Source: Actinomycetota bacterium (GTDB lineage: Bacteria; Actinomycetota; Geothermincolia; Geothermincolales; RBG-13-55-18). From it: a stretch of 44,362 nt of DNA. The DNA lies in the NCBI GenBank assembly GCA_028697145.1, contig JAQVFR010000011.1, forward strand, positions 1-44,362. Direction: 5' to 3'. The stretch's first letter is position 1. Every line of letters begins with the position of its first letter. The position numbers and the translations under genes were made by a program. Positions 9,874-41,403 of the stretch are shown in pieces. Below the pieces are notes generated by a model. The model searched no databases, was not told the origin of the DNA, and saw nothing but the letters and a program-made list of their open reading frames with translations.

Positions 9874-11793
<1,920 letters not shown>

Positions 11794-11851
11794 TTATCCT
11801 CCATCTCGCCTTGTTTTCTGTAGCGGCTGTGCCTTTTGTTTCAACAATCAA

Positions 11852-13325: not shown

Positions 13326-13343
13326 GGCGTGGCTTTTTTCTCC

Positions 13344-16024: not shown

Positions 16025-16072
16025 TGAATCATCCCCCGGGGAGGGTCGCGGGTAAATCTCAGCGCTATTCTA

Positions 16073-16822: not shown

Positions 16823-16906
16823 TGTGTTTCACCGCCCTTCATGTCTCGGAGGAAAAGACCAGGAAAGAAAAACGGAAAGGCGCCGGAAAGCGGGAAAGCA
16901 GGAAAT

Positions 16907-16915
16907 TTATACACA
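16907..16915 (+). promoter_or_regulatory. DnaA box, perfect consensus
   Basis: TTATACACA fits TTATNCACA exactly. It lies in the leader region of the GHKL-HTH/dnaA operon, so bound DnaA could also affect its own transcription. Confidence 0.7.
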
Positions 16916-17016
16916 GGCGCGCGCCGGTAAACGCCACCGCATGAAGCGGAAAACAAGGGCGGAAAGGCGCGCGCGCCGAGGCAAAAAAACGGCCACCGAA
17001 GTGCGAAAACGATGCA

Positions 17017-17037
17017 TTGTACACAGCAATATCCACA
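17017..17037 (+). promoter_or_regulatory. Tandem DnaA boxes
   Basis: TTGTACACA (17017-17025), the TTGTNCACA form common in high-GC bacteria, is followed three bases later by ATATCCACA (17029-17037), with one mismatch to TTATCCACA. Same orientation and short spacing suggest cooperative binding. Confidence 0.65.
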
Positions 17038-17093
17038 GCTGTTGAAAACCCCCTCCGCAGAGCCTGCGTCAGATGCCATAAGCACAACTCGCT

Positions 17094-17122
17094 ATTATAG
17101 TAGCATGTGGACGGCCGGTTAA
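17094..17122 (-). promoter_or_regulatory. Promoter of the GHKL-HTH/dnaA operon
   Basis: On the minus strand TTAACC (17117-17122) and TATAAT (17094-17099) are separated by 17 bases. Transcripts would pass through all the DnaA boxes before reaching the first gene at 16822, a leader of about 270 bases. This allows autoregulation by DnaA as a road-block. Confidence 0.58.
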
Positions 17123-17286
17123 GGGGGAACGGGCAAGCTGTCCCGGTGGAAAGTAGACCGAGCACGGGGACGGGCAAGGCCGGGCCAGGAACCCGGCACA
17201 CCCGAGGCGGGAAGACGGCCGGCCGGAGGGAGATGCCGCCGGGAGCACGGCGAGCACCATGGATATGGAACTAGCTGGAGCTTTCC

Positions 17287-17315
17287 TTGACACCCCCGGG
17301 GGGCACGGATATAAT
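17287..17315 (+). promoter_or_regulatory. Consensus promoter of rpmH
   Basis: TTGACA (17287-17292) and TATAAT (17310-17315) match sigma-70 consensus perfectly with a 17-base spacer. The spacer contains a CCCCCGGGGG palindrome. A GGAGG ribosome site (17330-17334) precedes the rpmH ATG by seven bases. It is the strongest promoter motif seen in the window. Confidence 0.9.
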
Positions 17316-17341
17316 TTTGATGCTTTTTTGGAGGTAAAGCC

Positions 17342-17476
17342 ATGAAAAGAACGTATCAACCGAATACCAGAAAAAGGAAGAAAAACCACGGCTTCCGCAA
17401 GAGGATGAGCACGAGGTCCGGAAGGGCTATTCTTAAAAGGAGGAGGCAAAAGGGCAGAAAGAGGCTGAGTGCCTGA
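17342..17476 (+). CDS. rpmH: Ribosomal protein L34
   Basis: A 44-residue, very basic protein starting [18 protein letters not shown], the invariant L34 signature, and ending in [13 protein letters not shown]. It is a small component of the large ribosomal subunit. The gene starts the rightward cluster from the putative origin, directly after a consensus promoter and GGAGG site. Its position next to dnaA and rnpA is conserved in most bacteria. The last eight bases overlap the proposed rnpA GTG start. Confidence 0.98.
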
Positions 17477-17819
17477 AAGCCCGATGGAAACCCTGAAGAA
17501 CAGCCGCGATTTCAGGAGGGTGGTAGAAGGCGGTCACAGGAAATATCTGGAAACCATCATCACCTACAGGCTCCCCAATCAGGAAGGTAAAACCCGCATC
17601 GGTATCTCTGTTGCCAGAAAAACGGCTGGCGGCAGCGTTAGGCGCAATCGTATCAAGAGAAGGATAAGAGAAGCGATAAGAAGGAACGCGGCGCTCGTGC
17701 CTGCCGGCGAGGACATCGTGATCGTAGCGAGGCGCGGCATAGAGACGGCGGCCTTCGGGCAGATAGAGAAAGATATCATCAGGTCTTGTGGGGGAAATCC
17801 AGGTGAAAAAGGCGATTGA
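17469..17819 (+). CDS. rnpA: Ribonuclease P protein component
   Basis: A basic protein of 116 residues (or 111 from ATG 17484) that helps RNase P RNA cleave 5' leaders from tRNA precursors. The N-terminal [14 protein letters not shown] and the family motif [18 protein letters not shown] (RNR box) at about residues 55-75 are present. I favour GTG 17469, since AGAGG lies four bases before it and the overlap with rpmH would couple translation; the ATG alternative has only a weak ribosome site. The 3' end overlaps yidD, so rpmH-rnpA-yidD is a tight operon. Confidence 0.95.
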
Positions 17820-18042
17820 CGGGATCCTGCGGAAGGCCATAAAGACAGCCGTCAGGGGCTATCAGATATTTTTATCGAGCTGGATGCCGCCGACCTGCCG
17901 CTTCTACCCCAGCTGCTCGCAGTATATGATACAGGCGGTCGAGAGGTTCGGACCCCTCAGGGGGACATGGATGGGAATCAGGAGGCTGGCGAGGTGCCAC
18001 CCCTGGAACCCCGGAGGATATGACCCCCTGCCGGAGGGATAA
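17803..18042 (+). CDS. yidD: Membrane protein insertion efficiency factor YidD
   Basis: A 79-residue protein from GTG 17803 (an upstream GTG at 17788 would add five residues). The family pattern is clear: an amphipathic N-terminus, [22 protein letters not shown] with three conserved Cys, and [17 protein letters not shown]. YidD is a membrane-associated factor that supports insertion by YidC and Sec. GGGGG lies eight bases before the chosen start. The gene overlaps rnpA by 17 bases and is six bases from yidC. Confidence 0.95.
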
Positions 18043-18048
18043 GGGATT

Positions 18049-19122
18049 ATGAACATCTTCGGTGATATATGGAACGGGATAGTAGCGGGGCTTAATTTCC
18101 TGCTGCAGGCATTCAACGACTTCACCGGCAACTACGGCGTCTCCATCATCCTGCTCACCGTCCTCGTCAAGCTGGTTCTCCTGCCCCTCACCATCAAGCA
18201 GACGCGATCGATGGTCGCCATGCAGAAGATCCAGCCGGAGATAAAGAAGCTGCAGGACAAGTACAAGGACGACAAGGAGCGGCTTTCACAGGAGATGATG
18301 AAGTTCTACAAGGAGAACAAGGTGAATCCCCTCGGGGGATGCCTGCCGCTCCTCCTGCAGATGCCGATATTCTTCGCCCTGTTCACGGTGCTCAGGAAGT
18401 ACCTCTTGACCCCTCCGATGAACATCATCGGCAATACCTTCGCGGTGATCCAGAAGCTTCCCATGTACGCGGAGGGCGCACCGGTGCTGGGCAATGCCCT
18501 CTACAACATCCCCTTTACGAAGCGGGCGGGCTTCCTGTGGATAAGCAACCTCGCCGACTCAACCCGCATCGCGGACCCGACCTTTATTTTCATCATCCTG
18601 CTGGCCGCGACCACGTGGTTCTCGCAGAAGCAGGTGATGACCGACCCCAGGCAGAAGAACATGCTGATAATAATGCCCCTTGTCACGGCATTCATCGGTT
18701 GGAGCCTGCCGGCGGGCGTGTCCCTTTACTGGCTGACGACCAACTTTCTGCAGATAATCCAGCAGTTCGCGATGGAGTGGTACGAGAAGAGGCACCCCAA
18801 GGAGGCGCCGAAGCCGGGAGACGACAGGAAAACAGCCTCGGAAAAGGAGCCGGCGGCCAGGGGCTCGAAGGGGCCTCCCGCGAAGGCGCAGGCCGGCGCG
18901 CAGACCAGAAGGAGCGCGGCGGCAAAAGGCCAAGCCAAGCCCGCCGGCGAGAAGCAGAAAGCCGCGGCGCGGAAAGGCGCGCCACCACAGAAAAGCAAGG
19001 CAGCCGCCCAGAAGGGAGGAAAGAAGCCTTCCTCCCAGGTGAGAAGGCCAAAGGGGCCGCCGCCGCAGCAGAAGAAGCCCCAGAAGGGAGCCGGCGGCAA
19101 GGGCGGTACGCGCAAGCGATAG
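18049..19122 (+). CDS. yidC: Membrane protein insertase YidC/Oxa1 family
   Basis: A 357-residue insertase of the short (Gram-positive or Oxa1-like) type. Hydrophobic segments occur around residues 29-50, 103-122 and near 175-240. A cytoplasmic loop with QKIQPEIKKLQDKYKDDKERL is typical, and NPLGGCLPLLLQMPIFFALF is the family core. No cleavable lipoprotein signal is apparent. The last 100 residues are a low-complexity tail dense in Lys, Ala, Gln and Pro. Comparable basic C-tails in some YidC proteins bind ribosomes; that role here is inference. The SRP RNA gene in the same window belongs to the same targeting pathway. Confidence 0.95.
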   Translation: MNIFGDIWNGIVAGLNFLLQAFNDFTGNYGVSIILLTVLVKLVLLPLTIKQTRSMVAMQKIQPEIKKLQDKYKDDKERLSQEMMKFYKENKVNPLGGCLPLLLQMPIFFALFTVLRKYLLTPPMNIIGNTFAVIQKLPMYAEGAPVLGNALYNIPFTKRAGFLWISNLADSTRIADPTFIFIILLAATTWFSQKQVMTDPRQKNMLIIMPLVTAFIGWSLPAGVSLYWLTTNFLQIIQQFAMEWYEKRHPKEAPKPGDDRKTASEKEPAARGSKGPPAKAQAGAQTRRSAAAKGQAKPAGEKQKAAARKGAPPQKSKAAAQKGGKKPSSQVRRPKGPPPQQKKPQKGAGGKGGTRKR

Positions 19123-19139
19123 AAGAAGGAGATGCTGCA

Positions 19140-19595
19140 ATGGAACCGGTGGAGAGGGACGTGACGCCGAAGAGCGTCGTCGTGGACATCGTAAACCTCA
19201 TGGACCTCAGGACGCGGATTACCAGCTGGGAAGACGAGGAGGAGATCCACGTCGACGTATGGGGCGACGACCTGGGAATACTGATCGGAAGAGGAGGCTC
19301 AACCCTGCAGGCCTTGCAGGATCTGGTGACCACCATCGTACGCAGGACGTGCCCGGAAACGAGAAGGATCGTCGTCGACGTAGAGAGGTACAAGGAGAGG
19401 CGCAGGCAGAAGCTGCGGGAATATGCGGAGAGGATGGCAGACAAAGCCCTGAGCACAAGGAAGGCGATCAGGCTGGAGCCCATGACGCCGCGGGAGAGAA
19501 AGATCGTGCACGATGCGCTGAAGGACTACGCGGGCGTTGAAAGCAAGAGCGAGGGCGAGGACCCGCAGAGAAGAATAGTGATCTCACCTGCATAA
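19140..19595 (+). CDS. jag: Jag/KhpB RNA-binding protein (KH-R3H), lacking the Jag-N domain
   Basis: The ATG at 19140 follows AGAAGGAG and gives a 151-residue protein. Residues 25-85 form a KH-type fold with GDDLGILIGRGGSTLQALQ, containing the GxxG-like loop. The C-terminal part (ARKAIRLEPMTPRERKIVHDAL-like, STRKAIRLEPM here) is an R3H domain with the conserved RxxxH (RKIVH). Bacillus Jag and KhpB also have an N-terminal Jag-N domain, which is absent here. KhpB binds RNA and influences cell division in streptococci. The gene is 17 bases after yidC, the usual location. Confidence 0.92.
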   Translation: MEPVERDVTPKSVVVDIVNLMDLRTRITSWEDEEEIHVDVWGDDLGILIGRGGSTLQALQDLVTTIVRRTCPETRRIVVDVERYKERRRQKLREYAERMADKALSTRKAIRLEPMTPRERKIVHDALKDYAGVESKSEGEDPQRRIVISPA

Positions 19596-19751
19596 AGGGA
19601 GAACGGGTTTACATAACATTCATCGGATAGCAGGTTAAAACACGCAAAACGCGCACTCCGCCCGGCACAGCTCGCCACACTCCATCGCGCCCGCACGGTT
19701 GCCTGCAAGAGGCCTGCGCGGGGCGAGGCACGAACGCCAATCAGGCCATGC

Positions 19752-19767
19752 CGTTTCACGTGAAACG
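19752..19767. promoter_or_regulatory. parS site 1 (near-consensus)
   Basis: CGTTTCACGTGAAACG is a perfect 16-bp palindrome. It differs from the consensus TGTTTCACGTGAAACA only at the outermost bases. It should be bound by the ParB encoded at 22544. Confidence 0.9.
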
Positions 19768-20578
19768 CAAACTTTTCATGAAGAAGAGGGGTTAACGTAG
19801 CACAGCCGCGCCTGCGAGCGCATTCATGCGGTGGCGGATGAGCAGGGAACCGGCATAGCGGTGTGCCGGCAATAAGGGCCGGGACACCCTCTCGCTGCCG
19901 ATAAGCGCGCAGCCAGGCCTACCCTGAAACCGGGAGAGCGCATACCTTGCGGGCATGCTGCGTGGAAGAGCCGGAGAGAACTTCACCAGCGACAGTGTCC
20001 TGCAAGGTGCATGAACCCAGGTTTTAGCTCGTGTCCAGAGAAAATCCCTAAAACGCCACAAAAACGCTCCTTTGCGTCGAAACACCCCTCGTTTAAGGGA
20101 AATTATTAACGCCGGTCAGTGCCAAAGACGATCTTTCCGAAGGGATCTAAGCGTATATCGGGCAAAAAACGCCTTGGCCGTGACCCGGCCACAGGGAGGC
20201 GAACCCCAATATCCAGCAGAAACAGCGCCAGCGGGGCAATATTCTAAACGGCTACTTTAGGTTTATGCTTGCCATATGGTTCTATCCGGGTGAATCCGGC
20301 GGAATCATACAATGAAGCAATTGGCAAAAGGGTATCAGGTTGCATCTAGAGCATGGAGAACAGGCGGCATAGGCAAATTTACGGAATTATCGTGTAAACA
20401 TCGGAACCGGCATGGTGAAAACGGGAGAAAGCAAGAGGGAGGGAAATGCTGGTAGGAAAAGGGCAAGAGGCTGGAATAAAAAGTGCGGGAACGGCATAAT
20501 CGCGATGTTTTTGATCCAGTACGTGTACATGCTGGGCGAGAATGGAGGGGAAAAAGGAGAAAACGGAGGAAACAGGCT

Positions 20579-20594
20579 TGTTTCACGTGAAACA
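20579..20594. promoter_or_regulatory. parS site 2 (consensus)
   Basis: TGTTTCACGTGAAACA is an exact match to the Bacillus and actinobacterial parS consensus, a perfect palindrome. Confidence 0.96.
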
Positions 20595-20720
20595 ATAAAA
20601 CACAATTTCGTTTGTGGGTATTTTGGCGGGGGCAGGAAAACAGCGAAACCCCATGCAGTCGAAAACGAGGAGAGAGTAAAGGCGTGATTATATGAGCCGA
20701 CCGGCAGTGATCGGCGAGGA

Positions 20721-20736
20721 TGTTTCACGTGAAACA
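20721..20736. promoter_or_regulatory. parS site 3 (consensus)
   Basis: A second exact copy of TGTTTCACGTGAAACA, 126 bases after site 2 and about 150 bases before the chosen rsmG start. If rsmG were annotated from 20692, the palindrome would be translated as VSRET, an argument for the later start. Confidence 0.96.
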
Positions 20737-20871
20737 TCCCAAACCCTGGGCACCGGAGGCCTTAATGGGAATTATTCAAGGAAATGGTTAAAGGACAGTG
20801 GGATTATGCAAAGAAACTTTATGCAGGGGAGAACGATCTATAAAACAGGAATATCAATGCGTAAGGACGGC

Positions 20872-21564
20872 ATGGCAGCGGAAAAAGGGGAATTCGCGGA
20901 ACGATTGAGGCGCGCCGCAGAAAGGGCGGCCGCGAAAGCGGGCATCGAAGCGAGCGAAGATAATCTGACGAAAATGACGGTTTACGTCGAAGAGCTGCGA
21001 AAATGGAACAATGCTTATAACCTGGTGGGGAGAAAGGTGGGTGAGGAAGGGCTGGAGAGCCTGTTGAGGGATGCCCTGTCGCCCCTTATCATAAAGGGCC
21101 TGTTCGCGGAGGGGAAGGAGGTGCTTGATATAGGGAGTGGCGCGGGAATGCCCGGAATACCTCTTTACCTTGTTGCGGGGCCCTTTCCGCTCACGCTAGT
21201 TGAGTCCCAGAGAAAAAGGATCACATTTCTAAAGCACATATGCCGCAAGCTGGAGCTGGAGGAGGCAAGGGTCTACGGCGGAAGGCTTGAGGAAATGGCC
21301 AGGACGGAAGACCACCTCAATGCATATGAAGTGGGCATGGCGCGAGCGGTTATGGACCCGATGCGGCTTGTGAGGCTGGCGCGGCCGCTTCTGTGCGAAA
21401 AAGGAAGACTAGTGCTCTTTCTTGGCAAGAAAGATGCCGAAAACATAAGAAAAGCGGCGCTTGGATTGGCGGAAAAGGGATTTGAGCTGGAAGTCTTGAG
21501 ATCAACGCAGCGAATCGCCGGCAAAGAGAATTACCTGGCGGTTCTGAGAAAGGCGGGCCGCTGA
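20872..21564 (+). CDS. rsmG: 16S rRNA (guanine-527-N7) methyltransferase RsmG
   Basis: A 230-residue SAM-dependent methyltransferase (formerly GidB) that modifies G527 of 16S rRNA. The start of the conserved part, VEELRKWNNAYNLVG, is followed by SAM-binding VLDIGSGAGMPGIPLYLV and VESQRKRITFL. The family element ARVYGGRLEE and the C-terminal VLRKAG are also present. The ATG at 20872 has AAGGA directly upstream; earlier in-frame starts (20692, 20857) exist, but the first would translate the parS site. Position between jag and parA is conserved. Confidence 0.94.
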   Translation: MAAEKGEFAERLRRAAERAAAKAGIEASEDNLTKMTVYVEELRKWNNAYNLVGRKVGEEGLESLLRDALSPLIIKGLFAEGKEVLDIGSGAGMPGIPLYLVAGPFPLTLVESQRKRITFLKHICRKLELEEARVYGGRLEEMARTEDHLNAYEVGMARAVMDPMRLVRLARPLLCEKGRLVLFLGKKDAENIRKAALGLAEKGFELEVLRSTQRIAGKENYLAVLRKAGR

Positions 21565-21627
21565 ACAAGTGGCGCACAACCTGAGGGCGGAAGCGATTCA
21601 GGAGATGTCAGTCGCGAGGTGAGGACC

Positions 21628-22551
21628 ATGGAAACGGAAGAGACAATGGAAGAGGCCGGAAGGGGAGAGACGGCATGGGACATGGAAACGGAGGGAAACG
21701 AAGCCGTGGGGCAGGGAGCGGCCGGGATCGGCGGGGAGTCGAGCGAAACAAGACGGGAGACGGTGGCACCAGCGGTGCCTGCGCCTGACTACGCGAGGAT
21801 CGTGGCGATAGCCAACCAGAAGGGCGGAGTCGGCAAGAGCACCACGGCGATAAACCTGGGTGCGTATCTAGCCATGGAAGGCAAAAGGGTACTCGTGGTG
21901 GACCTCGACCCCCAAAGCAACGCAACAAGCGGGCTGGGGATAGGCCCGGGGGTGGGAGACCTGCAGATATACGATGTTCTGGTTAACGAGGTCTCCCTTG
22001 AAGAGATAATAGTCCGAACCTCGACGGAGGGTTTAGACCTGGCTCCGTCGTCTCTGCGCCTGGCGGGCGCGGAGGTGGAGCTGGTGTCGTTATATTCGCG
22101 GGAAGGACGTTTGAAGAAGAGCCTGGAGCCAGTCAGGGACCGTTATGACATAATCCTGGTGGACTGCCCGCCGTCGCTCGGCCTGCTGACCGTCAACGCA
22201 CTTGCGGCAGCGGACGAGGTGATGATCCCCATACAGTGCGAGTATTACGCCCTGGAGGGCCTGGTCCTGCTGCTGCGCACCATTGAGAAAATAAGAGTGT
22301 ATCTCAACCCCGACCTGCGCATAGGCGGCATACTGCTTACCATGCATGATGCGCGGACGAATATATCCAAGCAGGTCATGGAGGAAGTGAGGAAGCAGTA
22401 TCCAAACGAGACATTCGTCACGGTCATACCGCGTAACGTACGCCTCAGCGAGGCCCCGAGTTACGGACAGCCCATATCCCAGTATGATCCGCAATCGAGG
22501 GGCGCGCAGGCATACCAGGATCTGGCAAAGGAAGTGATATCCCATGGCTAA
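21628..22551 (+). CDS. parA: Chromosome partitioning ATPase ParA (Soj)
   Basis: A ParA/MinD-type Walker ATPase of 307 residues from ATG 21628 (GTG 21619 adds three). The deviant Walker A motif is ANQKGGVGKSTTAINLG; Walker A' is VVDLDPQSNAT and Walker B is ILVDCPPSLG. About 55 N-terminal residues rich in Glu and Gly precede the ATPase core, a loose extension seen in several actinobacterial ParAs. ParA forms ATP-bound dimers on DNA that drive ParB-parS complexes apart. The last eight bases overlap the parB start. Confidence 0.95.
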   Translation: METEETMEEAGRGETAWDMETEGNEAVGQGAAGIGGESSETRRETVAPAVPAPDYARIVAIANQKGGVGKSTTAINLGAYLAMEGKRVLVVDLDPQSNATSGLGIGPGVGDLQIYDVLVNEVSLEEIIVRTSTEGLDLAPSSLRLAGAEVELVSLYSREGRLKKSLEPVRDRYDIILVDCPPSLGLLTVNALAAADEVMIPIQCEYYALEGLVLLLRTIEKIRVYLNPDLRIGGILLTMHDARTNISKQVMEEVRKQYPNETFVTVIPRNVRLSEAPSYGQPISQYDPQSRGAQAYQDLAKEVISHG

Positions 22552-23398
22552 GAAAGGCTTGGGCAAAGGACTCGGCGCGCTGATAACCACGAGCACCGCA
22601 GCGGAACAGCCCAGACACGAGATGATACCCATCGACAGCATATCCCCGAACCCCATGCAGCCGAGGAGAAGGTTCAACGAGGAGAGCCTCGAGGAACTGG
22701 CGGCCTCGCTGAAGGAGCACGGGCTGGTGCAGCCCATAATCGTCAGGCCAAAAGGGACCGGCTACGAGATCCTCGTGGGCGAACGCAGGTGGAGGGCCGC
22801 CCAGTTGGCGGGAGCGAAGTCCATACCGGCCGTGATAAGGGACGCAGAAGCCTCTGAATGCCTGCAGATCGCGCTCGTGGAGAACCTCCATCGCGACGAC
22901 CTCAACGGCATAGAGGAGGCAACGGCGTTCAGGCAGCTTATCGAGGACTTCGGTCTCTCCCAGGATGAAGTTGCGCAAAAAGTGGGCAAGAGCCGCTCGG
23001 CCGTGGCCAATTCCCTGAGGCTTCTTCAACTTCCAGTAGAGGTTCAGGCAACGATAGTCGCAGAGGAGATCACGCCGGGACATGCCCGCGCCCTCCTGGC
23101 CCTGCAGGGCGACCCCTATCAGGCGGCGCTGCTGCAGCGAATCATCGAGGAAGACCTGTCCGTACGGCAGACGGAGGAGGTCGCGAGGGCGCGACTCGTC
23201 GGCAGCGGCGACGCCACGCAGAGGGAAAAGCCGCAGTCCCTGGGAGAATACGCGGAGCTCATATCCGCGAGCCTCGGCACGAAGGTGAAGGTCATGCAGG
23301 GAAAGCGCAAAGGGAAGATCATCATCGAGTTCAAGGGCGAGAAGGACCTGCGCCGCCTGATGGCCGAGCTAGGCGTGGGCGCCGGGGGGGCGGAGTGA
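22544..23398 (+). CDS. parB: Chromosome partitioning protein ParB (Spo0J)
   Basis: A 284-residue ParB. The N-terminal KKGLGKGLGALI probably contacts ParA. The CTP-binding domain holds GERRWRAAQLAG and ENLHRDDLNGIEEA; the latter has His where many relatives have Gln (ENLQR). A helix-turn-helix (LSQDEVAQKVGKSRSAVANSLRL, about residues 140-165) recognises parS. A C-terminal dimerisation segment ends the protein. ParB loads at parS and spreads as a CTP-dependent sliding clamp. The three palindromes 1.8-2.8 kb upstream are its expected targets. Confidence 0.96.
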   Translation: MAKKGLGKGLGALITTSTAAEQPRHEMIPIDSISPNPMQPRRRFNEESLEELAASLKEHGLVQPIIVRPKGTGYEILVGERRWRAAQLAGAKSIPAVIRDAEASECLQIALVENLHRDDLNGIEEATAFRQLIEDFGLSQDEVAQKVGKSRSAVANSLRLLQLPVEVQATIVAEEITPGHARALLALQGDPYQAALLQRIIEEDLSVRQTEEVARARLVGSGDATQREKPQSLGEYAELISASLGTKVKVMQGKRKGKIIIEFKGEKDLRRLMAELGVGAGGAE

Positions 23399-23416: not shown

Positions 23417-24355
23417 TCAGGCATATTTTTCCATGGCTAGCCTGACCAGCACACGGACCAGCTCCTTGAACTCCATGCCGGCCGCTTCCGCCGCCATGGG
23501 GAGAAGGCTGGTCTCGGTCATACCAGGGCTGATGTTCAACTCCAGGACCTGGGGTACGCCCTCGGCGTCTATTATTATGTCCACGCGCGAGACGTTGAGG
23601 CAGCCGAGAGCCCGGTGCGCGCGCAGCGCCATCTCGACGACGAGGCGGGAAACTCCCTCGTCGAGCCGGGCCGGGCAGTAATACTCGGTAAGGCCGGGGG
23701 TGTAGCGGGAATCGAAGTCGAAGAAACCACTTTGGGGAACGGTCTCCACGAGGGGAAGAGCCTTGAGTTCGTCGTTGCCGAGAATGCTGACGGCCACCTC
23801 GGTGCCATTAACATATTTTTCCAGCAACACCCGGTCATCGTAATGCAGGGCCGTGCGGACCGCCTCCGGCACTTCCTCGTTTGAGGCGGCGATCCTTATC
23901 CCCAGGGCAGATCCCTGGGCCGCGGGCTTGACCACCAGGGGGAATCCGAGCTTCTCTCCCGCCGCCTCGAGCGCGTGCAGCGCCCCCATCTCGTGGAAAG
24001 TCGCCTCGCTCAAGACGAAAAAGGGCGGGGTGGGGATTCCCTCGCGCAGGAATATCTCCTTGGACACGGCCTTGTTGAAGCCGATGGTGCTGGAGAAAAC
24101 GCCGGGCCCCGTGTAAGGGATGTCCAGTATCTCGAGGAGCTCCTGCACGGTGCCGTCTTCCCCGAACTTGCCGTGCAGCGCTATGTACACCAGGTCAAGG
24201 TGCTCCCTGCGCAGAACGGGAACGAGGTTCTCGTTGACGTCGAGATCGAGGACCTCGTGCCCGAGCATGTCGAGCGCGCGGGACACCCTGCGCCCCGAAC
24301 GAAGGGAGATGTCGCGTTCGAGCGATCTCCCGCCCATAAGAACCCCTATACGCAT
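23417..24355 (-). CDS. ddl: D-alanine-D-alanine ligase
   Basis: A 312-residue ATP-grasp enzyme that joins two D-Ala for peptidoglycan precursors. From ATG 24355 it begins MRIGVLMGGRSLERDISLRSG, the typical Ddl N-terminus with the catalytic Glu in a SLERDIS context (xxEHxVS in many others). ALHGKFGEDGTVQELLE, VVKPAAQGSALGI and the C-terminal VLELNISPGMTETSLLP are the expected ATP and substrate motifs. An AGGGGG stretch is about ten bases before the start. The preceding aminotransferase ends 13 bases upstream, so they are probably cotranscribed. The enzyme is convergent with parB. Confidence 0.93.
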   Translation of the reverse strand: MRIGVLMGGRSLERDISLRSGRRVSRALDMLGHEVLDLDVNENLVPVLRREHLDLVYIALHGKFGEDGTVQELLEILDIPYTGPGVFSSTIGFNKAVSKEIFLREGIPTPPFFVLSEATFHEMGALHALEAAGEKLGFPLVVKPAAQGSALGIRIAASNEEVPEAVRTALHYDDRVLLEKYVNGTEVAVSILGNDELKALPLVETVPQSGFFDFDSRYTPGLTEYYCPARLDEGVSRLVVEMALRAHRALGCLNVSRVDIIIDAEGVPQVLELNISPGMTETSLLPMAAEAAGMEFKELVRVLVRLAMEKYA

Positions 24356-24368
24356 GCCGTTCAACCCC

Positions 24369-25652
24369 CTATTGTTCATCATGCGGCGGCGCTTCCCCGG
24401 GGCGCGGCACCTTGAACCCCAGGGACCCCGCCAGCGAGATCTCCCGTTTGACAACTTTTGCCAACCGCTTGATGCCCTCGTGGATCGTCTCGATGTCCGA
24501 ATAGCTGAAATTAAGGCGCATGCAGTTTTCGCCGCCCCGGTGCGGGTAGAACCCGTCTCCCGGTACGTAAGCGACCTTCGCGTCCAGGGCCGCCGCGAGC
24601 ATCTCAGACGCCTTGATGAAATCGGGAAGGATCACCCATACGAACAGGCCGCCCTCCGGGTGTGTCCACTCCGCTATCCCCGAGAGGTGCTCCTCCAGGG
24701 CGGAGAGCATAGCGTCGCGCCTGCTGCGATATATCTCCACGAGCTGTCCCACCTGCCCCCTCCAGTCCTCAGAGGTGAAATAGCTGTGCGCCACCATCTG
24801 GGTGAAGGTTGAGGTGGCGAGGTCGGCCGATTGCTTGGCCAGCACCACCTTGTCCAGTATGGCATGGGGCGCGGCCACCCAGCCGATGCGCATGCCCGCG
24901 GAGAATATCTTCGACATCGTACCCAGGTATATCACCCGGCTCTCGTCCAGGCTGCGCAGTGTCGGTGCGGCCGTCCCCCCGAAGCGCAGCATGCCGTAGG
25001 GGTTGTCCTCGACGATCAGGCAGTCGTAGTCGTTGGCAAGCTCCAGCAGCCCGAAGCGCCGCTCGCTGCTCAGGGTTATTCCTGCCGGATTCTGGAAATT
25101 CGGGATGGTATAGATGAACTTCGCCATCGCTCCTTCCGCGCTAAGCCCGGACAGCACCTCGCGCAGCCCGTCCAGGATCATGCCGTTCTCGTCCATGGGG
25201 ATCGTATGCACCCTGGGCTGATAGCTCAGAAAGCTGTTGAGGGCGCCCACGTAGGTCGGTGCCTCGGTGATGATGTGGTCTCCGGGGTTGATGAATATCT
25301 TGGAGATCATCTCCAGGCCCTGCTGTGCGCCGTTGGTGATGATGAGGTCCTCGGGATAGCACGGGGTGCCCTCCTCGCGCATCACCTCGATGATGCAGTG
25401 CTTCAGGGGAGCGAAACCGTCGGTGGGCCCATACTGCAGGGCTGCCGCATGGTCCTCCGCGAGCACCCTGCGCACCGACCTCATGATGGTCTCGGGGTCC
25501 AGTGCCTGCGTGAAGGGCAGGCCGCCGGCCAGGGAGATGATATCCGGCCGCGCCGTGACCGCGAGCAGGTCCCTGATCTCAGAAGAGAGCATGCTCTGCG
25601 TGCGTTGCGCGTACCGGTCTATGAATGGATCGAGGGTGAATCTCGGGGACAT
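24369..25652 (-). CDS. PLP-dependent aminotransferase, class I/II (LysN/2-aminoadipate type)
   Basis: A 427-residue fold-type I aminotransferase. ISLAGGLPFTQAL at residues 40-52, ITNGAQQGLE, IVEDNPYGMLRF and the Schiff-base Lys in GTMSKIFSAGMRIGW are present, as is the C-terminal RLNFSYSD with the carboxylate-binding Arg. Such sequences are usually annotated as 2-aminoadipate or aromatic aminotransferases related to MocR C-domains. The substrate cannot be told from sequence. ATG 25652 with GAGGTG about eight bases upstream is preferred over TTG 25658. Its partner ddl might suggest D-amino acid metabolism, but that is inference. Confidence 0.9.
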   Translation of the reverse strand: MSPRFTLDPFIDRYAQRTQSMLSSEIRDLLAVTARPDIISLAGGLPFTQALDPETIMRSVRRVLAEDHAAALQYGPTDGFAPLKHCIIEVMREEGTPCYPEDLIITNGAQQGLEMISKIFINPGDHIITEAPTYVGALNSFLSYQPRVHTIPMDENGMILDGLREVLSGLSAEGAMAKFIYTIPNFQNPAGITLSSERRFGLLELANDYDCLIVEDNPYGMLRFGGTAAPTLRSLDESRVIYLGTMSKIFSAGMRIGWVAAPHAILDKVVLAKQSADLATSTFTQMVAHSYFTSEDWRGQVGQLVEIYRSRRDAMLSALEEHLSGIAEWTHPEGGLFVWVILPDFIKASEMLAAALDAKVAYVPGDGFYPHRGGENCMRLNFSYSDIETIHEGIKRLAKVVKREISLAGSLGFKVPRPGEAPPHDEQ

Positions 25653-34711: not shown

Positions 34712-35314
34712 ATGCAGAACGAACGGGGGTCGTCTATGATGCTCAACGGAGCCGAAGCTCCCGGTAACGGACGCGAGAAAACACGGGGTGAGCTATCGGT
34801 GTTCGAGGAGGTCGTGAACGTAGGAGTGGCGGAGTATTTCGTCACCCACGACCCGCACGTATTGGCCAGCTTCGGGCTGGGGAGCTGCGTGGGGGTTGCC
34901 CTTTATGACCAAAAGCGCAAGATCGGCGGCCTCGCGCATATAATGTTGCCCGATTCGAGCTCCATGAGCAGGAAGGGCAACCCGGGAAAGTTCGCCGATA
35001 CCGCCATCGAGGCCATGGTCAGCGAGATGGAGCGGCTGGGCTCGAAGCGGACGGACATCAGAGCCAGGATCGCGGGCGGGGCGTGCATGTTCACCATCCC
35101 GGGAGCGGTCAATCCGCGCAACGTCCCCGGTCCATGCCTCGGGATGCAGATAGGTGAGCGCAACGTCGAAGCGGCCAAGGCCGTGCTTAAGGAAATGGGC
35201 ATTCAGCTGGTAGACGAGGACACGGGCGGAAACCACGGAAGGACGATGCGCTTCGACGTCTCGAGCGGCAGCGTGACCATAAACTCGATCAAACACGGGG
35301 TGAGGGAGCTGTGA
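34712..35314 (+). CDS. cheD: Chemoreceptor glutamine deamidase CheD
   Basis: A protein of about 200 residues (ATG 34712 preferred; GTG 34694 possible). The catalytic Cys is in FGLGSCVGVALYD and the His in GLAHIMLPDS. Thr/Ser partners occur in the KFADTAIEAM region. IAGGACMF and VDEDTGGNHGRTMRFDV are family elements. CheD deamidates Gln in receptors and also activates CheC, which precedes it by 44 bases. The conserved core begins at about residue 35, so the N-terminal 30 residues are a linker or a sign of a later start. The stop overlaps the next gene's GTG by four bases. Confidence 0.92.
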   Translation: MQNERGSSMMLNGAEAPGNGREKTRGELSVFEEVVNVGVAEYFVTHDPHVLASFGLGSCVGVALYDQKRKIGGLAHIMLPDSSSMSRKGNPGKFADTAIEAMVSEMERLGSKRTDIRARIAGGACMFTIPGAVNPRNVPGPCLGMQIGERNVEAAKAVLKEMGIQLVDEDTGGNHGRTMRFDVSSGSVTINSIKHGVREL

Positions 35315-35658
35315 AAGAGGACGTGAGGAGCGAGGGGATAGAGGTCTCCAGCGAGGCCATCGCGACGCTTGCCGCGCAAGCGGCGAATGAGGTGGAGGGC
35401 GCGACGGTCTATGTCGCACGGCCATCGAGCAGCATTACCTCGCGCGTAAAAAGGGAGTTCATGCACAAGGGGATCAAGGTCAGCCGCGAAGAGGATACCT
35501 GCCGCCTCGGCGTCTACCTCAAGGTCGATTACGGGACGAACATACCCGCCCTCGCCGAGGAGGTAAGGGCGAAGGTGAAGGAATACGTCGAGGGCCTCAC
35601 CGAGCTGAAGGTCGAGGACATCGAGATAGTCATCGAGGACATCGAACCTCCTGCATAA
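35311..35658 (+). CDS. Asp23/Gls24 family envelope-stress protein
   Basis: A 115-residue Asp23/Gls24 protein. The pattern EGIEVSSEAIATLAAQAANEVEGA, GIKVSREEDTCRLGVYLKVDYGTNIPALAEEVRAKVKEYVE is typical (residues 8-95). These proteins are associated with cell envelope stress and membrane anchoring of Asp23 in Staphylococcus; their molecular role is unclear. The GTG at 35311 overlaps the cheD stop (GTGA), so it belongs to the chemotaxis transcript. No membrane segment is seen. Confidence 0.88.
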   Translation: MKEDVRSEGIEVSSEAIATLAAQAANEVEGATVYVARPSSSITSRVKREFMHKGIKVSREEDTCRLGVYLKVDYGTNIPALAEEVRAKVKEYVEGLTELKVEDIEIVIEDIEPPA

Positions 35659-35986: not shown

Positions 35987-36976
35987 TTATTCGGTTGGGT
36001 TGAAGTAGGTAACGACCGACTTCGCAAGGGCGGGGACCAGGACGCCGAGGGCGTCCATCTCGGGGGGAGTTTCCACTATCACGCAGGGCATGCGGGTCTC
36101 CCGCAGCAGGGGATGGCTCCTCGCCTCGGGGGAGGGCAGCTCCCTTCCCGCCCGCGACTCTGTCTCGCGGTGTATGAGTTCCGCAAGGCGCCTGCCCCGG
36201 GGCGAGGAGTATCCCCTGCTTCCGAAGAAGAACACGCGCAGCCCCGGCTCGGCCGTTTCCCTCAGGCCCAGGACCAGGTCGGCGCCCAGGTCGTTGGCCA
36301 GGCGCGCCCGCCTGCTTTCGGACAGGGAGCCGCTGACCCCACCCGTTATCGACGCGGAAAGCCCGAGGGAAAGCAGTTCTACCGACACCAGGCGCAGCAT
36401 CTCCTCCGCGCCGGCGTCCCCCTCGGCCGCGTCGAGGACCACGCTCTTGCCCTCCAGACCCCTGGGGGTCGCCAGGTCCTGCAGCGCCTCATGCACCTCG
36501 GCCACGCTGGTGTCCTTCATGGCGTGCTTCAGTCTCTGCAGGCACGAGATGGTCGAAGAGCCGGCGATGCCGTCCACGGGCAGGGCCATGTTGTGCTGAA
36601 AGGCACGGAGCGCAAGATCGGTATCCCGCCCGAAAATGCCGTCCTCCCGGCCCGCGTTGAACCCCAGGCGGTTCAGGTATCGTTGCACTTCGCGCACGTC
36701 GTCGCCGCGGAAAGGGGGCACGCGCAGATAGAGAAACCTGTCCCCTAGACGGAAGGAGGCTTCAACCAGCTCCTGCCAGGTGGTCTCGTCGACCTCGCCC
36801 TCGGCGCGGAGGCCTCTCTCCTCCTGGAAGGCGCGCACGGCCCGGGCGGTGCTCTCCCCGAAACGGGCCTCCTTCATCTCGGCATCGAAGCCCGGGGGGG
36901 TGTAGCCCAGATCGAACAGCTTTTTCTGCACGTCGCTCACGGCGAGGCCGCTGTCACCCGGGCGGATGGTCTGCAT
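35987..36976 (-). CDS. cwlM: CwlM-like pseudo-amidase with two peptidoglycan-binding domains
   Basis: A 329-residue protein without signal peptide. Two PG_binding_1 domains (about 7-75 and 90-150; GDDVREVQRYLNRLGF) precede an amidase_3 fold. The Zn ligands are lost: the usual DPGHGG is DAAEGD (182-187), and the usual SIHAN is GLRET (237-241, His to Arg). Glu302 in IVETPPE remains. Mycobacterial CwlM has the same architecture, a comparable SLRCE segment, no secretion signal and a cytoplasmic role as a regulator of MurA. I therefore call it CwlM-like. It lies three bases after the histidine kinase gene, last in its operon. Confidence 0.85.
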   Translation of the reverse strand: MQTIRPGDSGLAVSDVQKKLFDLGYTPPGFDAEMKEARFGESTARAVRAFQEERGLRAEGEVDETTWQELVEASFRLGDRFLYLRVPPFRGDDVREVQRYLNRLGFNAGREDGIFGRDTDLALRAFQHNMALPVDGIAGSSTISCLQRLKHAMKDTSVAEVHEALQDLATPRGLEGKSVVLDAAEGDAGAEEMLRLVSVELLSLGLSASITGGVSGSLSESRRARLANDLGADLVLGLRETAEPGLRVFFFGSRGYSSPRGRRLAELIHRETESRAGRELPSPEARSHPLLRETRMPCVIVETPPEMDALGVLVPALAKSVVTYFNPTE

Positions 36977-36979
36977 CGC

Positions 36980-39076
36980 TCACTCCCCCCTGCTTATGGG
37001 AATGGTGAACTTGAACGACGAGCCGCGTCCGGCCTCGCTCTCCACCCAGATGCGCCCCCCGTGGCCCTCGATGATACCCTTGGAGATCACCAGGCCGAGA
37101 CCGAGGCCGCCAACGGAACGGGCGGAATCGGTCTCGGCCTGGTAGAACATGGTGAACAACTTCCCCTGCTCCTGCAGGGGGATCCCGGGACCGGTGTCGC
37201 GCACCTCTATCTCCACCATGTCCGGGTCCCCCGAACTCCTCGCTACCACCTCTATCGTACCCCCTTCCGGGGTGAACTTTATGGCGTTGCCGATGAGGTT
37301 TTCCATGACCTGGTGCACCCTCCAGACGTCGACGCTCACCGGAGGCAGGTTATTCTCCACGGAGAACAACAGTTCCTGCCCGCACTGCGCGGCACGGCCC
37401 TTGTACTCGGAGACGGCATTGGTGACCAGGCCGTCCACGGGCGCAGGCCACCTCTCGCCCACCAGGCGTCCTTCCTCCAGGCGCGTCACGTCCAGCAGAT
37501 CGTTGATGATCTTGGTCATCTGGTCGGCGCGCGCGTTCATTATCTTCACCTTGTCCATCTGGAACTCGGAAAGCTCACCGAGTTCCCCGAACTGGAAGGC
37601 GTCGGCATAACCCTTGATGATGGACAGGGGCGTGCGCAGTTCGTGCGAGGCGATGGCGATGAAGTCGGACTTCATCCTATCCAGGACCGAGAGTTCCTCG
37701 TAGGCCTTCTCCAGGTCCTGGTGGCTCCGCTCCACCATCTCCTCGAGCCTGCGGCGCTCGCTGAGGTTGTGGGCGATGCCCACGATGCCCGAGAATTTGC
37801 CGGCGCGGAAGAGGGGGGCCGAGCTCATCTGCACCGGCAGGGGGATGTCGCCGCGGCACCTGAGCAAGGTCTCGAAGAAGACCTTCTCGCCCCGCTCGTG
37901 CCGCTCCAGCATGCGCTCTATTTTCCGGCGCTCCTCGGGCATCACGATATCAATGGCGTTTCTGCGGAAGAGTTCGGCCGAGTCGCTGATGCCCAGCATG
38001 TCCAGGAACGCCTGGTTGCAGAAGGTGAACCCGCCCTCGGCGTCCATGGCGTAGAAGCCGTCGTTGAGGCTCTCGATGAGCAGGTTCAGGTAATCGGTGG
38101 TCTCGGCCAGGCGTCGCTCCAGCCTCACGTATTCGGTGACGTCCTCGTAGAGGAGCAGAGCCTCCCTCACGTTGCCGGACTCGTCCGTAAGCGGATGGAT
38201 GCGCACGCGGTGGAAATAGTCGATCCCCGCCACCGTCTGGTGAACGCGCGGCTGTTCAAAGGAACGGCCCTCCACCAGCACGCGCCGGAGTATTCGTTTC
38301 CAGTCCGCGCGGAATTCCTTGGGCATTATGTCCAGGGCGGGCGTCCCGATGAGCGCCCCTTCCTCGAGGTTGCAGGTGTCGTGGACCCACTGCATCATCA
38401 GCCGGTTACAGCGCGCCAGGCGGAAATTCCGGTCCAGGACGGCGATCTTCACGGGCACTCCCTCGAATACCCCCGCCTCCCGCTCCGATGCCTCGAGCAG
38501 GGCCACGTGCTCAGTCGCCTCGAGCGTGATGTCCTTGATCATGACGAGAAAGCGGTTATGCTCGCCCGGTCCCCCCTCGAGCAGGGAGGTCCAGACCTCG
38601 CAGAAACCCGTTTTTCCCTTGAGGAAATACTGCTCGCCGCGGCGGTCCAGCGGCCCCCTTCCGCCCCGGACCTCTTTGAGCAGGGGGCTCCAGTTCCCGA
38701 AGTAAGGGGGCAGGAAAGCCTCGTCCAGCGGCTTACCCAGGAAGTCCGAGGGCTCGCGCTCCATGCCTGGCACGAGCTTGCACGCGAGAAGGTTTATCTC
38801 CAGGATCGCGCCATCCTCGCTCACCAGCAGCGCTGGCGAGGGGAAAGACTCCAGTACGGTGTCGATCCGCAGGCGCGGCTGCGCGGCGGCGCGGGGAGCG
38901 CGCGGCCGTGCCAAGGCCGCCGCAAGGGCGAAGGCCGCGGACGCCGCGGCCAGGGCGGCGAAGACGATGGCGGGGATGCGCCAGCCGAAGGCGCTGGCCA
39001 CGAGGGCGATGCCCGAGAGGACCAGGAGCACCACCAGCGCGATGGAGAGACGGCGCAAGTGCCGCTCAGGCCTCAT
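36980..39076 (-). CDS. Multi-PAS membrane histidine kinase
   Basis: A 698-residue sensor kinase. Two N-terminal membrane helices (about residues 9-31 and 33-56) are followed by three PAS-like segments between about 70 and 455, with VLDRNFRLARCNRLMMQW and FYAMDAEGGFTFCNQAFLDMLG as typical signs. The HisKA domain holds phospho-acceptor His478 (IASHELRTPLSIIKGYA). The ATPase domain shows MENLIGNAIKFTPEGG, EVRDTGPGIP and GLGLGLVISKGIIEGHGG. The ligand is unknown. The ATG at 39076 overlaps the membrane protein gene upstream by 11 bases. The lone receiver gene in the same operon is its likely partner. Confidence 0.93.
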   Translation of the reverse strand: MRPERHLRRLSIALVVLLVLSGIALVASAFGWRIPAIVFAALAAASAAFALAAALARPRAPRAAAQPRLRIDTVLESFPSPALLVSEDGAILEINLLACKLVPGMEREPSDFLGKPLDEAFLPPYFGNWSPLLKEVRGGRGPLDRRGEQYFLKGKTGFCEVWTSLLEGGPGEHNRFLVMIKDITLEATEHVALLEASEREAGVFEGVPVKIAVLDRNFRLARCNRLMMQWVHDTCNLEEGALIGTPALDIMPKEFRADWKRILRRVLVEGRSFEQPRVHQTVAGIDYFHRVRIHPLTDESGNVREALLLYEDVTEYVRLERRLAETTDYLNLLIESLNDGFYAMDAEGGFTFCNQAFLDMLGISDSAELFRRNAIDIVMPEERRKIERMLERHERGEKVFFETLLRCRGDIPLPVQMSSAPLFRAGKFSGIVGIAHNLSERRRLEEMVERSHQDLEKAYEELSVLDRMKSDFIAIASHELRTPLSIIKGYADAFQFGELGELSEFQMDKVKIMNARADQMTKIINDLLDVTRLEEGRLVGERWPAPVDGLVTNAVSEYKGRAAQCGQELLFSVENNLPPVSVDVWRVHQVMENLIGNAIKFTPEGGTIEVVARSSGDPDMVEIEVRDTGPGIPLQEQGKLFTMFYQAETDSARSVGGLGLGLVISKGIIEGHGGRIWVESEAGRGSSFKFTIPISRGE

Positions 39077-39437
39077 CCCGCCTCCTTCCCCTGTCGCGGG
39101 AGCGCCCCAGCTCCTCCCAGATCCAGCTCCAGTATTTGGCCGTTGCGAAGACGGCCAGGGTGATACCGATGGTGAGCGGCACGGTGGCTACGACCACTTT
39201 GAGCAGCAGCCCGGTCTTCAGGGCGGGTTCGGGAATGCCCCAGGCTCTGGTGAGCAGCAGTATCCAGCCAACGGGAAGGGGGAGGACAAAGAAAAGGAGC
39301 GACACGTGATAGAGGCGGTAATACGGCGGCAACTCCAGGGCTTCGCCCAGGCGCTTGCCCAGGGACGCGAGTAGCACGAGCAGGACCCCCACCGAAAGGG
39401 GGCCGATCACAAAGAGGGCCGAGGCGAGATAGTTCAT
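39066..39437 (-). CDS. Small membrane protein of unknown function (four helices)
   Basis: From ATG 39437 a 123-residue protein beginning MNYLASALFVIGPLSVG. Three to four hydrophobic helices cover most of it, around residues 3-25, 43-65, and 78-105, ending in an Arg-rich tail (GRSRDRGRRRDEA). I recognise no family. The start overlaps the stop of the preceding small membrane gene (ATGA), and its stop lies inside the kinase gene start. These overlaps indicate coupled translation and suggest that the two small proteins are membrane partners of the kinase. This role is inference. Confidence 0.75.
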   Translation of the reverse strand: MNYLASALFVIGPLSVGVLLVLLASLGKRLGEALELPPYYRLYHVSLLFFVLPLPVGWILLLTRAWGIPEPALKTGLLLKVVVATVPLTIGITLAVFATAKYWSWIWEELGRSRDRGRRRDEA

Positions 39438-39739
39438 TTCCCCAACATCAAGCGATAGGACCTGTACACGACGACGAGAAGGAGCACGCCCGCGATCGCC
39501 GGCCACACGGCGTACCACATGTAGAAGGCCACGATGGAATCGGCCAGGGAGTAGATGAGGGTACTGGCAACCATGAGGAGAAAGAAGAGCGGCAGCAGAA
39601 AAGCATAGGTGCGGCCCTGGAACCTGCGCTCGGCCAGCCGGCATATGCCGTAGAAATAAACCAGGAGCATGGCCGTGGCGGAGGTGTTATATATCCACAG
39701 GAACAGGGAAAAAGTCTTCCACCAGTCGTTGGCTGTCAA
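39434..39739 (-). CDS. Small membrane protein of unknown function (three helices)
   Basis: A 101-residue protein with three hydrophobic helices: SLFLWIYNTSATAMLLVYFY (about 11-30), FLLPLFFLLMVASTLIYSL (about 47-65) and the last at about 72-92. Charged residues ERRFQGR lie between helices 1 and 2. I recognise no family. It sits 38 bases after the receiver gene and overlaps the next small membrane gene by four bases. The Trp/Tyr-rich helices and the tandem arrangement suggest a hetero-complex with it. Confidence 0.72.
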   Translation of the reverse strand: MTANDWWKTFSLFLWIYNTSATAMLLVYFYGICRLAERRFQGRTYAFLLPLFFLLMVASTLIYSLADSIVAFYMWYAVWPAIAGVLLLVVVYRSYRLMLGK

Positions 39740-39777
39740 GTGCCCCCCTTAACCATAGGCTCGCCGGACCCACGCGC

Positions 39778-40173
39778 TCACTGCCCACCCGAACCTCGTC
39801 TGCGCTCGTCCAAGATGCGCCTGACCTCGGTGAGCAGCTCCTGCTTGCTGAAGGGCTTGGTGATATACCCCGCCGCCTTCATCACCGAAAGGCCGATCAT
39901 CTTGTCTATGTTCTGGGTGCGGGCGGTGATAAAAGCCACCGGCGTGTTCTGGACTTCCGGATCGTTCTTGATGCGGCGCAGGACCTCCCAGCCGTCGATC
40001 TTCGGCATCATGATATCAAGGAGGATGAGGTCGGGCTTCTCCTTGAAGGTCTTCTCCAGCGCCTCCTCGCCGGAGAAGGCGGAAATGGTGACGAAGCCGG
40101 CGTTGCTCAGAAAGAGCTGTATGAGCTCGACCATCTCGCGGTCGTCGTCAACTACCAGGATCTTCTCGGCCAA
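39778..40173 (-). CDS. Single-domain response regulator
   Basis: A 131-residue receiver. Asp9-Asp11 (VVDDDREMV), phospho-acceptor Asp53 (LLDIMMPKIDG), Thr in AFITART and Lys in YITKPFSKQELL are present. There is no output domain, apart from a short Arg/Gly-rich tail. The start TTG at 40173 follows the stop of the KaiC-like gene with no gap (TGATTG); the ribosome site GGGAGGTGG is inside that gene's end. Its likely kinase is the multi-PAS protein 700 bases downstream. Output may be by protein contact, possibly with the KaiC-like ATPase. Confidence 0.93.
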   Translation of the reverse strand: MAEKILVVDDDREMVELIQLFLSNAGFVTISAFSGEEALEKTFKEKPDLILLDIMMPKIDGWEVLRRIKNDPEVQNTPVAFITARTQNIDKMIGLSVMKAAGYITKPFSKQELLTEVRRILDERRRGSGGQ

Positions 40174-40983
40174 TCAATCCACCTCCCCTTTCCCGGCGGA
40201 CCTCGCTTTCTTTCCGAACACCTCCATGAAGGCATCTATCTCCTTGCGGCGCGGCAGGCCGGACAGGACCCCCTCGCGGTCCGCGAAAGGCTCTCCGATC
40301 ACGATCCCCCGCTCCGTCACCCGGAACTCGCGGATGGACTTGTCGTGCGAGCTGGCGCGCTGCTTGAGGACCAGGATCGCCCGGCTGACGGAGGAGTCCA
40401 ACTCCACGTAGCGCAGGATGATCACCGCGTCCACGAGGTAGGATATGCCGTATTGCGCGGCGGTCATATCGCCGGTGATGTCTGGGTCCTCCTGGGTCAC
40501 GAGGGCGGTCAGTCCATGCCTCAGAAGGGCGTTGATGAAGGTGAAGGCCACCTCGCGCAGCCTGACCGGGTCGCGCGCCAGGCGCTCCAGGTGTGATATG
40601 GAGTCGATGAAGATGCGCCTGGCCCCGAGCTCCTGCACCATGGTGTCAAGCAGCCCGCCGGGGGTCTGAGCCTGCTCGAAGAATATCTCCGGGGAGGTGA
40701 AAAGGATACGCAGCTTGCCTTCGCGCTCCATCTCCTGGAGGTCGAAGCCAAGGGACGCCGCATCCCGCAGCAGCTTCTTGGGGAAATGCTCGAAGGTGAC
40801 GATCAGCCCGGGCTCCCCCATCTCCACACCGCGGGATATGAATTCCAGCCCGAGGCAGGTCTTGCCGGTACCGGGTGCGCCTACGACCAGGGTGACGGAT
40901 CCATTGAGCGGACCGCCCTCCATCATCTCGTCGAGATGCTTGTTGCCCGTGGGCGTCCTTTCCACGAGTTCGCTGTCGCTCAT
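40174..40983 (-). CDS. KaiC-like RecA-superfamily ATPase (single domain)
   Basis: A 269-residue KaiC/RAD55-type ATPase. Walker A is VVGAPGTGKTCLGLEFI near residues 30-46, followed by IVTFEHFPKKLLRDAASLGFD and a Walker B-like RIFIDSISHLE. The sequence ends with RVTERGIVIGEPFADREGVLSGLP, a KaiC-type strand. Cyanobacterial KaiC has two such domains; this has one, as in archaeal and bacterial KaiC-like signalling proteins. The ATG at 40983 has GGAGGTGAC directly before it. It is the first gene of the operon with receiver, two membrane proteins and kinase. A role in circadian timing should not be assumed. Confidence 0.88.
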   Translation of the reverse strand: MSDSELVERTPTGNKHLDEMMEGGPLNGSVTLVVGAPGTGKTCLGLEFISRGVEMGEPGLIVTFEHFPKKLLRDAASLGFDLQEMEREGKLRILFTSPEIFFEQAQTPGGLLDTMVQELGARRIFIDSISHLERLARDPVRLREVAFTFINALLRHGLTALVTQEDPDITGDMTAAQYGISYLVDAVIILRYVELDSSVSRAILVLKQRASSHDKSIREFRVTERGIVIGEPFADREGVLSGLPRRKEIDAFMEVFGKKARSAGKGEVD

Positions 40984-41042
40984 GTCACCTCCCGCTCGCC
41001 GCGGCCCCACAGCCCGGCATCGCAGCCACCGCTGTCTTTATT

Positions 41043-41048
41043 ATTATA
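41043..41048 (-). promoter_or_regulatory. Possible -10 box of the KaiC-like operon
   Basis: TATAAT on the minus strand, 60 bases before the ATG at 40983. I see no matching -35 element. It faces away from the SRP RNA promoter 70 bases to the right. Confidence 0.45.
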
Positions 41049-41113
41049 CACATAGCCCTCGCACCCCTTGCCGCGAGGTGCGGGACGGTTCATCCTTGTC
41101 GGTCGGCCGCGCG

Positions 41114-41129: not shown

Positions 41130-41403
41130 GTGATCGTGCTAAGCGGGGAGCTAGCGGTGCCCTGAACCCGCAATCCGCTACAGCGGGGCCGAATCCCCAA
41201 CTGAGGCTCTCCGGCCTTGAGTATTGCGCGCAGGAAAGTGGTGTTGAAGGTCGGGTCCTGCGCAACGGGAAATTGTGAATCCCGTCAGGTCCGGAAGGAA
41301 GCAGCGGTAAGCAAACCTTCTCGTGTGCCGCAGACTAACCTGCCCGGAGCTAACTACCCGTGTAGCGCTTGGGACCGGAAGTCGAGGAAGGGTGCACGAT
41401 CAC
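41130..41403 (+). ncRNA. ffs: SRP RNA, large bacterial type
   Basis: The signal recognition particle RNA, partner of Ffh in co-translational targeting. The conserved domain IV, GTCAGGTCCGGAAGGAAGC followed by AGCGGTAAG, occurs around 41284. The ends pair: GTGATCGTGC (41130-41139) with GCACGATCAC (41394-41403). The length of about 274 bases corresponds to the long form with Alu domain, as in Bacillus scRNA, and not to the 4.5S type. dnaX follows immediately, the classic scr-dnaX order. Confidence 0.95.

Follow-up and report, generated by a model that had tools for sequence, protein, structure and literature searches.

Which partners serve a KaiC-family ATPase whose gene stands at the head of a run that also encodes a receiver, two small membrane proteins, a PAS kinase and a CwlM-like protein? 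Archaea are rich in KaiC-family proteins, which are also widespread in bacteria, yet to our knowledge few of their partners have been identified beyond the cyanobacterial clock and the archaellum. The window analysed here is a whole stretch of 44,362 nt from a 2.98-Mb actinobacterial draft genome, contigs of which (e.g. C39, C52) are given under the code G000. Our preferred reading, which we hold at a probability of about 0.55, is that the locus encodes a KaiC-based signalling cassette in which the two small membrane proteins, mp1 and mp2, would act as membrane partner for a KaiC-family switch governed by a phosphorylated receiver.

All six genes lie on the reverse strand, beginning with kaiC (40174..40983, ATG start), which encodes a single-domain KaiC-family ATPase of 269 aa, and continuing with the gene for a stand-alone receiver of 131 aa (RR, 39778..40173, Response_reg at 97.7 bits). 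These are followed by mp1 (39434..39739, TTG start) and mp2 (39066..39437), encoding membrane proteins of 101 aa with three helices and 123 aa with three TM helices, each of an unnamed family, then by HK (36980..39076), for a histidine kinase of 698 aa with three PAS domains, HisKA and HATPase_c, and finally by cwlM (35987..36976). The junctions given in the earlier note agree with these coordinates: a zero-gap kaiC/RR junction, where the kaiC stop TGA abuts the RR start codon (TGATTG), a 4-nt ATGA overlap between mp1 and mp2, an 11-nt overlap between mp2 and HK and a 3-nt gap between HK and cwlM; one further junction, the 38-nt gap between RR and mp1, was missing from that list. Upstream, the operon is limited by a divergent SRP RNA gene (41134..41399, forward strand) that is followed by dnaX, ybaB and recR, and downstream by an Asp23-family gene (35311..35658, forward strand) at the end of a convergent cheA-cheC-cheD run.

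Among named relatives, the locus is shared by Candidatus Solincola and Candidatus Geothermincola MAGs. Within the window's own, Solincola-type family (f1) the locus was found in 14 of 15 genomes, the exception being a genome that is 62% complete. The six-gene order lies on a single contig in 13 of these, and in G011 a contig break falls between kaiC and RR. The codes f2 and f3 denote other families of the taxonomic order to which f1 belongs, and f4 to f7 other families of its class. The kaiC-RR gap is 0 in most f1 genomes, the mp1-mp2 overlap is 4 nt in nearly all and the HK-cwlM gap is 2-3 nt in most. All six genes gave dN/dS values of 0.05-0.20 (NG86, versus a same-genus genome), denoting purifying selection, which marks mp1 and mp2 as genuine genes, and since both the order and near-identical junctions recur in the family while every gene is under such selection, the arrangement is not due to chance. 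Of the six products the receiver varies least, with 85-93% identity within f1. The proposal of one conserved operon running from a KaiC-like ATPase through a receiver, two unrecognised membrane proteins and a PAS kinase to a CwlM-like last gene is thus borne out by an order kept in the family.

The sequence 5' of kaiC is unalignable across f1 except for an invariant TGTATAATAA block. In the window, a promoter-like box, TGTATAATA, is located at 41042..41050 on the reverse strand, about 59 nt 5' of the kaiC start codon. Across about 328 kb (the window and relatives) TGTATAAT occurs 15 times, at 13 of the 14 f1 loci (one with two copies) and at one f3 locus, and because all 15 occurrences precede kaiC, by 18-132 nt, we rejected it as a general housekeeping promoter. 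No conserved -35 element accompanies the TGTATAAT box. The position of the box is good evidence, albeit not proof, for a single predicted promoter at the operon head.

Does cwlM belong to the signalling unit? A six-gene system that ties a signal to envelope growth via CwlM, as the earlier note had it, would fit an adjacency of HK and cwlM that is constant in 14 family genomes, as well as the role of mycobacterial CwlM, a cytoplasmic protein that is phosphorylated on its C-terminal tail (T374), activates MurA and regulates peptidoglycan precursor synthesis (PMC4946905). The window protein resembles mycobacterial CwlM in that it carries no predicted signal or TM segment, two PG_binding_1 domains and an amidase_3 fold (Amidase_3 at a marginal 27.1 bits versus a cut-off of 27) and in being near-universal, its profile matching in 89 of 98 genomes across the phylum and as a single copy in nearly all. 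It differs in ending at the amidase domain, so that the phosphorylated tail is absent, in lacking the zinc ligands, and in lying beside a KaiC cassette in this order. The ligands are kept in the C52 amidase of the same genome and in the CwlM of sister family f4, and the two Amidase_3 genes that the genome has besides cwlM encode different proteins. Throughout the order CwlM has lost the zinc ligands wholly or partly (L161, L162, L070 and the window gene).

Gene neighbourhoods argue against this six-gene system. CwlM is found phylum-wide and occurs without the cassette: in f4 (L163, L164, L166, L168) cwlM adjoins cheA-cheC-cheD, dnaX or both and there is no KaiC cassette, and two distant lineages (L171, L174) have it in a trxB-trxA-cwlM-parB-parA context. 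By descent CwlM stands outside the signalling unit, cassette-less sister families showing the same neighbours (cheA/C/D or dnaX). Moreover, both Geothermincola genomes (L161, L162) keep the cassette beside dnaX but have cwlM with che genes on another contig, so that separation of the genes in relatives holds for cwlM and not for the five-gene core, which stays together. As cwlM is also absent from the archaeal modules described below, and the tail that is phosphorylated in mycobacteria is missing, we consider control of envelope growth by a six-gene system improbable. The unit is a five-gene cassette (KaiC, RR, mp1, mp2 and HK) plus one neighbour, CwlM. The latter is, as its genomic contexts suggest, a phylum-wide single-copy amidase homologue encoded ancestrally near parB, and the about 13 kb that separate parB (22544-23398) from cwlM in the window are in keeping with an ancestral location at the parB side. 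The simplest reading would have the cassette inserted between dnaX and cwlM. Because the cassette is placed upstream of cwlM in Solincola, a single message would there carry both, and CwlM may be produced together with the signalling proteins; cwlM thus adjoins the cassette and is probably co-transcribed with it. Any link of the cassette to wall growth is at most transcriptional, and the tempting connection through CwlM is a neighbourhood effect, to be judged separately. A KaiC-like neighbour of cwlM that had been suspected in L169 turned out to be a glycosyltransferase. The stretch 7344-23398 of the window is a likely origin region, with dnaA, dnaN, recF and gyrase-like genes recognised from their sequence and parA (21619-22551) and parB assigned by Pfam, placing cassette and cwlM near the origin; a D-Ala-D-Ala ligase gene (23417-24454), convergent with parB, is a second peptidoglycan gene near cwlM.

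The window KaiC matches PF06745 at 161 bits (cut-off 26.6) and has an intact Walker A motif (GAPGTGKT). Its catalytic Glu is kept and the second Glu of the pair is replaced by His (TFEHFP), a replacement seen in 17 of 17 cassette KaiC proteins of the order (E-H, or E-Q in two relatives). E-E is kept in a paralogue and in the KaiC of the archaeal modules (in its single or its C-terminal domain), the glutamate pair being typical of active PF06745 members though not of the family at large. Of the two glutamates in cyanobacterial KaiC, the former has the catalytic role and the latter binds Mg (PMC2777353); since the lost residue is the Mg-binding one and the catalytic Glu is kept, the site of the cassette KaiC is altered, not obviously dead. 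The combination of a KaiC-family ATPase with a histidine kinase and a receiver recalls the output pathway of cyanobacterial KaiABC with SasA/RpaA, but a Kai circadian or timing system is very improbable here. Clock KaiC is a double-domain protein with S431/T432, whereas the window protein has a single domain and the altered catalytic pair, with Ser kept at the S431 position and Tyr instead of Thr at that of T432; furthermore, the cassette receiver lacks an output domain, the membrane pair stands in place of KaiA/KaiB, and kaiA and kaiB were not recognised among the immediate neighbours.

The phospho-acceptor residues of the receiver (Asp, Thr, Lys) are intact, and its domain content together with the HisKA and HATPase_c of HK fits a two-component system. 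Cassette receivers share Q.ID(K/R/T)MIGL.V and Y(I/L)TKPF, motifs that are absent from two contrast receivers of the lineage. No Pfam or NCBIfam model matches mp1 or mp2. Conserved in mp1 are an I.R..E..F...T(Y/F) region and a C-terminal MxG, and in mp2 the motifs (K/R)R(L/M)GxAL and (K/R)YWxWxxxE, which helix order and charge place on the putative cytoplasmic side. AF2 models of both proteins are three-helix bundles (pLDDT 80 for mp1 and 82 for mp2); a solved membrane fold was rejected for either, a Foldseek search of the PDB returning nothing below E 1. A defence system was likewise discarded, as the PADLOC matches were confined to weak, generic ones to receivers, none of them meaningful.

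A genome-wide scan with the mp2 alignment recovered the Solincola/Geothermincola loci and three Methanosarcinales/ANME-2 contigs, on which the order is roadblock/LC7, double-domain KaiC, mp1, mp2, sCache-HAMP-PAS kinase and receiver (L104 ends inside the kinase). A follow-up profile search in 247 genomes of the Methanosarcinales/ANME-2 phylum added two more loci of the roadblock-KaiC-mp1-mp2-HK-RR type (L118, L119), two with a single-domain KaiC followed by mp1-mp2-RR (L121, L122) and one KaiC-mp1-mp2 locus (L123), these last three with no kinase alongside, as well as an orphan mp2 (L120); a weak match in G241 was dropped as spurious, being a 487-aa open frame with no KaiC nearby. Among 396 Actinomycetota genomes the profile detected 14 of f1, 2 of f3 and one distant genome, G455, whose contig starts inside KaiC and continues with mp1-mp2-HK-RR, the archaeal order. 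No mp2 was found on plasmids.

The bacterial and archaeal mp2 profiles match at E 2e-19. The corresponding mp1 match (E 8e-6, hhalign probability 84%) is weak on its own, and an mp1-versus-mp2 profile control gave 0.016. Searched with the window KaiC, all seven archaeal genomes with a KaiC-mp locus that were queried returned the mp-linked KaiC as best match. The window RR found the mp-linked receiver first in 6 of these 7 (the best match lies elsewhere in G119), and in the reverse direction the archaeal RR retrieved the window RR first in the window's genome, at 148 bits versus 113 for the next. The co-occurrence expected by the earlier note holds across genomes for KaiC, RR, mp1, mp2 and HK, which also recur together in archaea; KaiC-mp1-mp2 is the constant core across both domains, a specific orthologous receiver is usual and the kinase is optional. 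Because the same set recurs in methane-cycling archaea, mp1 and mp2 are probably a dedicated membrane partner and not random neighbours. A cassette that repeats in two domains of life, with the receiver and both membrane proteins fixed, singles out candidate partners for KaiC and might reveal the way in which a receiver governs a KaiC ATPase.

The sensor part of the kinase varies, with three PAS domains in the window, sCache-HAMP-PAS in ANME-2 and a Tll0287-like domain in G455. The redox or energy input suggested earlier has no counterpart in the window's genome, and only the distant G455 kinase has a Tll0287-like, CxxCH sensor. In that kinase (L215:806-2401) the Tll0287-like domain is extracytoplasmic and carries a CLKCH motif, making it a possible haem-based sensor. 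Could mp1 and mp2 themselves respond to the state of the membrane or to redox state and pass this signal to the PAS kinase, with KaiC as the output? Consistent with this, the window HK has two predicted N-terminal TM segments and itself lacks an extracytoplasmic domain, and its gene overlaps mp2 by 11 nt. Similarly, mp1, mp2 and HK have decayed together in the single f2 genome (G015, L070:8000-9390), where stops interrupt mp1, mp2 is cut short and HK, which has frameshifts, lacks its PAS part, with the kaiC, RR and cwlM reading frames open; this could be a decayed cassette or an assembly fault, and it is compatible with both the partner and the sensor reading. We nevertheless regard a sensor role as somewhat unlikely, since the archaeal and G455 kinases own sensors (sCache, Tll0287-like) while mp1-mp2 is still kept, and L121-L123 have KaiC-mp1-mp2 with no kinase alongside.

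A constant KaiC-mp1-mp2, a usual receiver and an optional kinase with a variable sensor point instead to mp1 and mp2 as the membrane partner of KaiC, and to kinase and receiver as an interchangeable input. Gene content, linkage, homology and the intact phosphorelay residues are established by the sequences; from linkage and conservation we propose that mp1 and mp2 would form a small membrane complex, and that the cytoplasmic mp2 motifs (RLGEAL loop, YWxW tail) may hold a KaiC oligomer at the membrane. HK, with its lineage-dependent sensor domain, would phosphorylate the stand-alone receiver, which could dock on KaiC via its unusual alpha4-beta5 face and, once docked, switch the nucleotide state of the KaiC-mp1-mp2 complex. 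The output would come from this complex, through a target in the membrane or the cytoplasm; the five-gene cassette encodes no such target. In a wider form of the proposal, for which we see evenly balanced odds, mp1 and mp2 would be two new membrane protein families that jointly constitute a dedicated membrane receptor for KaiC-family ATPases, within a cross-domain signalling system built from a variable kinase, a dedicated receiver, KaiC and the membrane pair and common to methane-cycling archaea and deep-branching actinobacteria.

The archaellum KaiC homologue ArlH works at the membrane with a membrane platform, and the cassette KaiC is proposed to resemble it as a KaiC-family protein at the membrane with membrane partners. 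It differs in scoring 42.9 bits on the NCBIfam ArlH model (cut-off 215), and mp1/mp2, at 100-120 aa, are too small for ArlJ. Makarova, Galperin and Koonin (2017; mBio 8:e01959-17) reportedly proposed KaiC-family proteins as archaeal signalling hubs. Like these hubs, the cassette joins a KaiC-family ATPase to receivers and histidine kinases, and the archaeal module copies belong there; it differs in the fixed pair of small membrane proteins, the distinct receiver and the presence in actinobacteria. The module may in part be described already in Makarova et al. 2017; that proposal is cited in the passages of PMC5847659 that were searched, and these passages contain no small membrane protein pair beside KaiC.

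In a KaiC tree, bacterial and archaeal module KaiC do not form one clade, so that KaiC has possibly been recruited more than once; the placement of the bacterial cassette KaiC relative to the archaeal one is unresolved in this tree. A single recent transfer of the whole cassette is unsupported, as the cassette KaiC groups with a bacterial paralogue, that on C39. This paralogue (L073:8311-9114) is a second single-domain KaiC with E-E intact, followed by a 121-aa protein (7917-8282), perhaps an HTH protein, and a similar pair of KaiC and small protein is also present in G061 (L075). In G075 (L047:707-2223) a KaiC stands before two further small membrane proteins (104 and 139 aa, neither matching Pfam) and a protein that resembles the small one beside KaiC on C39, which makes this another, possibly unrelated, arrangement of KaiC with two membrane proteins. 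Finally, in f24 (L044, L045, L046) KaiC has a C-terminal extension of about 190 aa with several cysteines.
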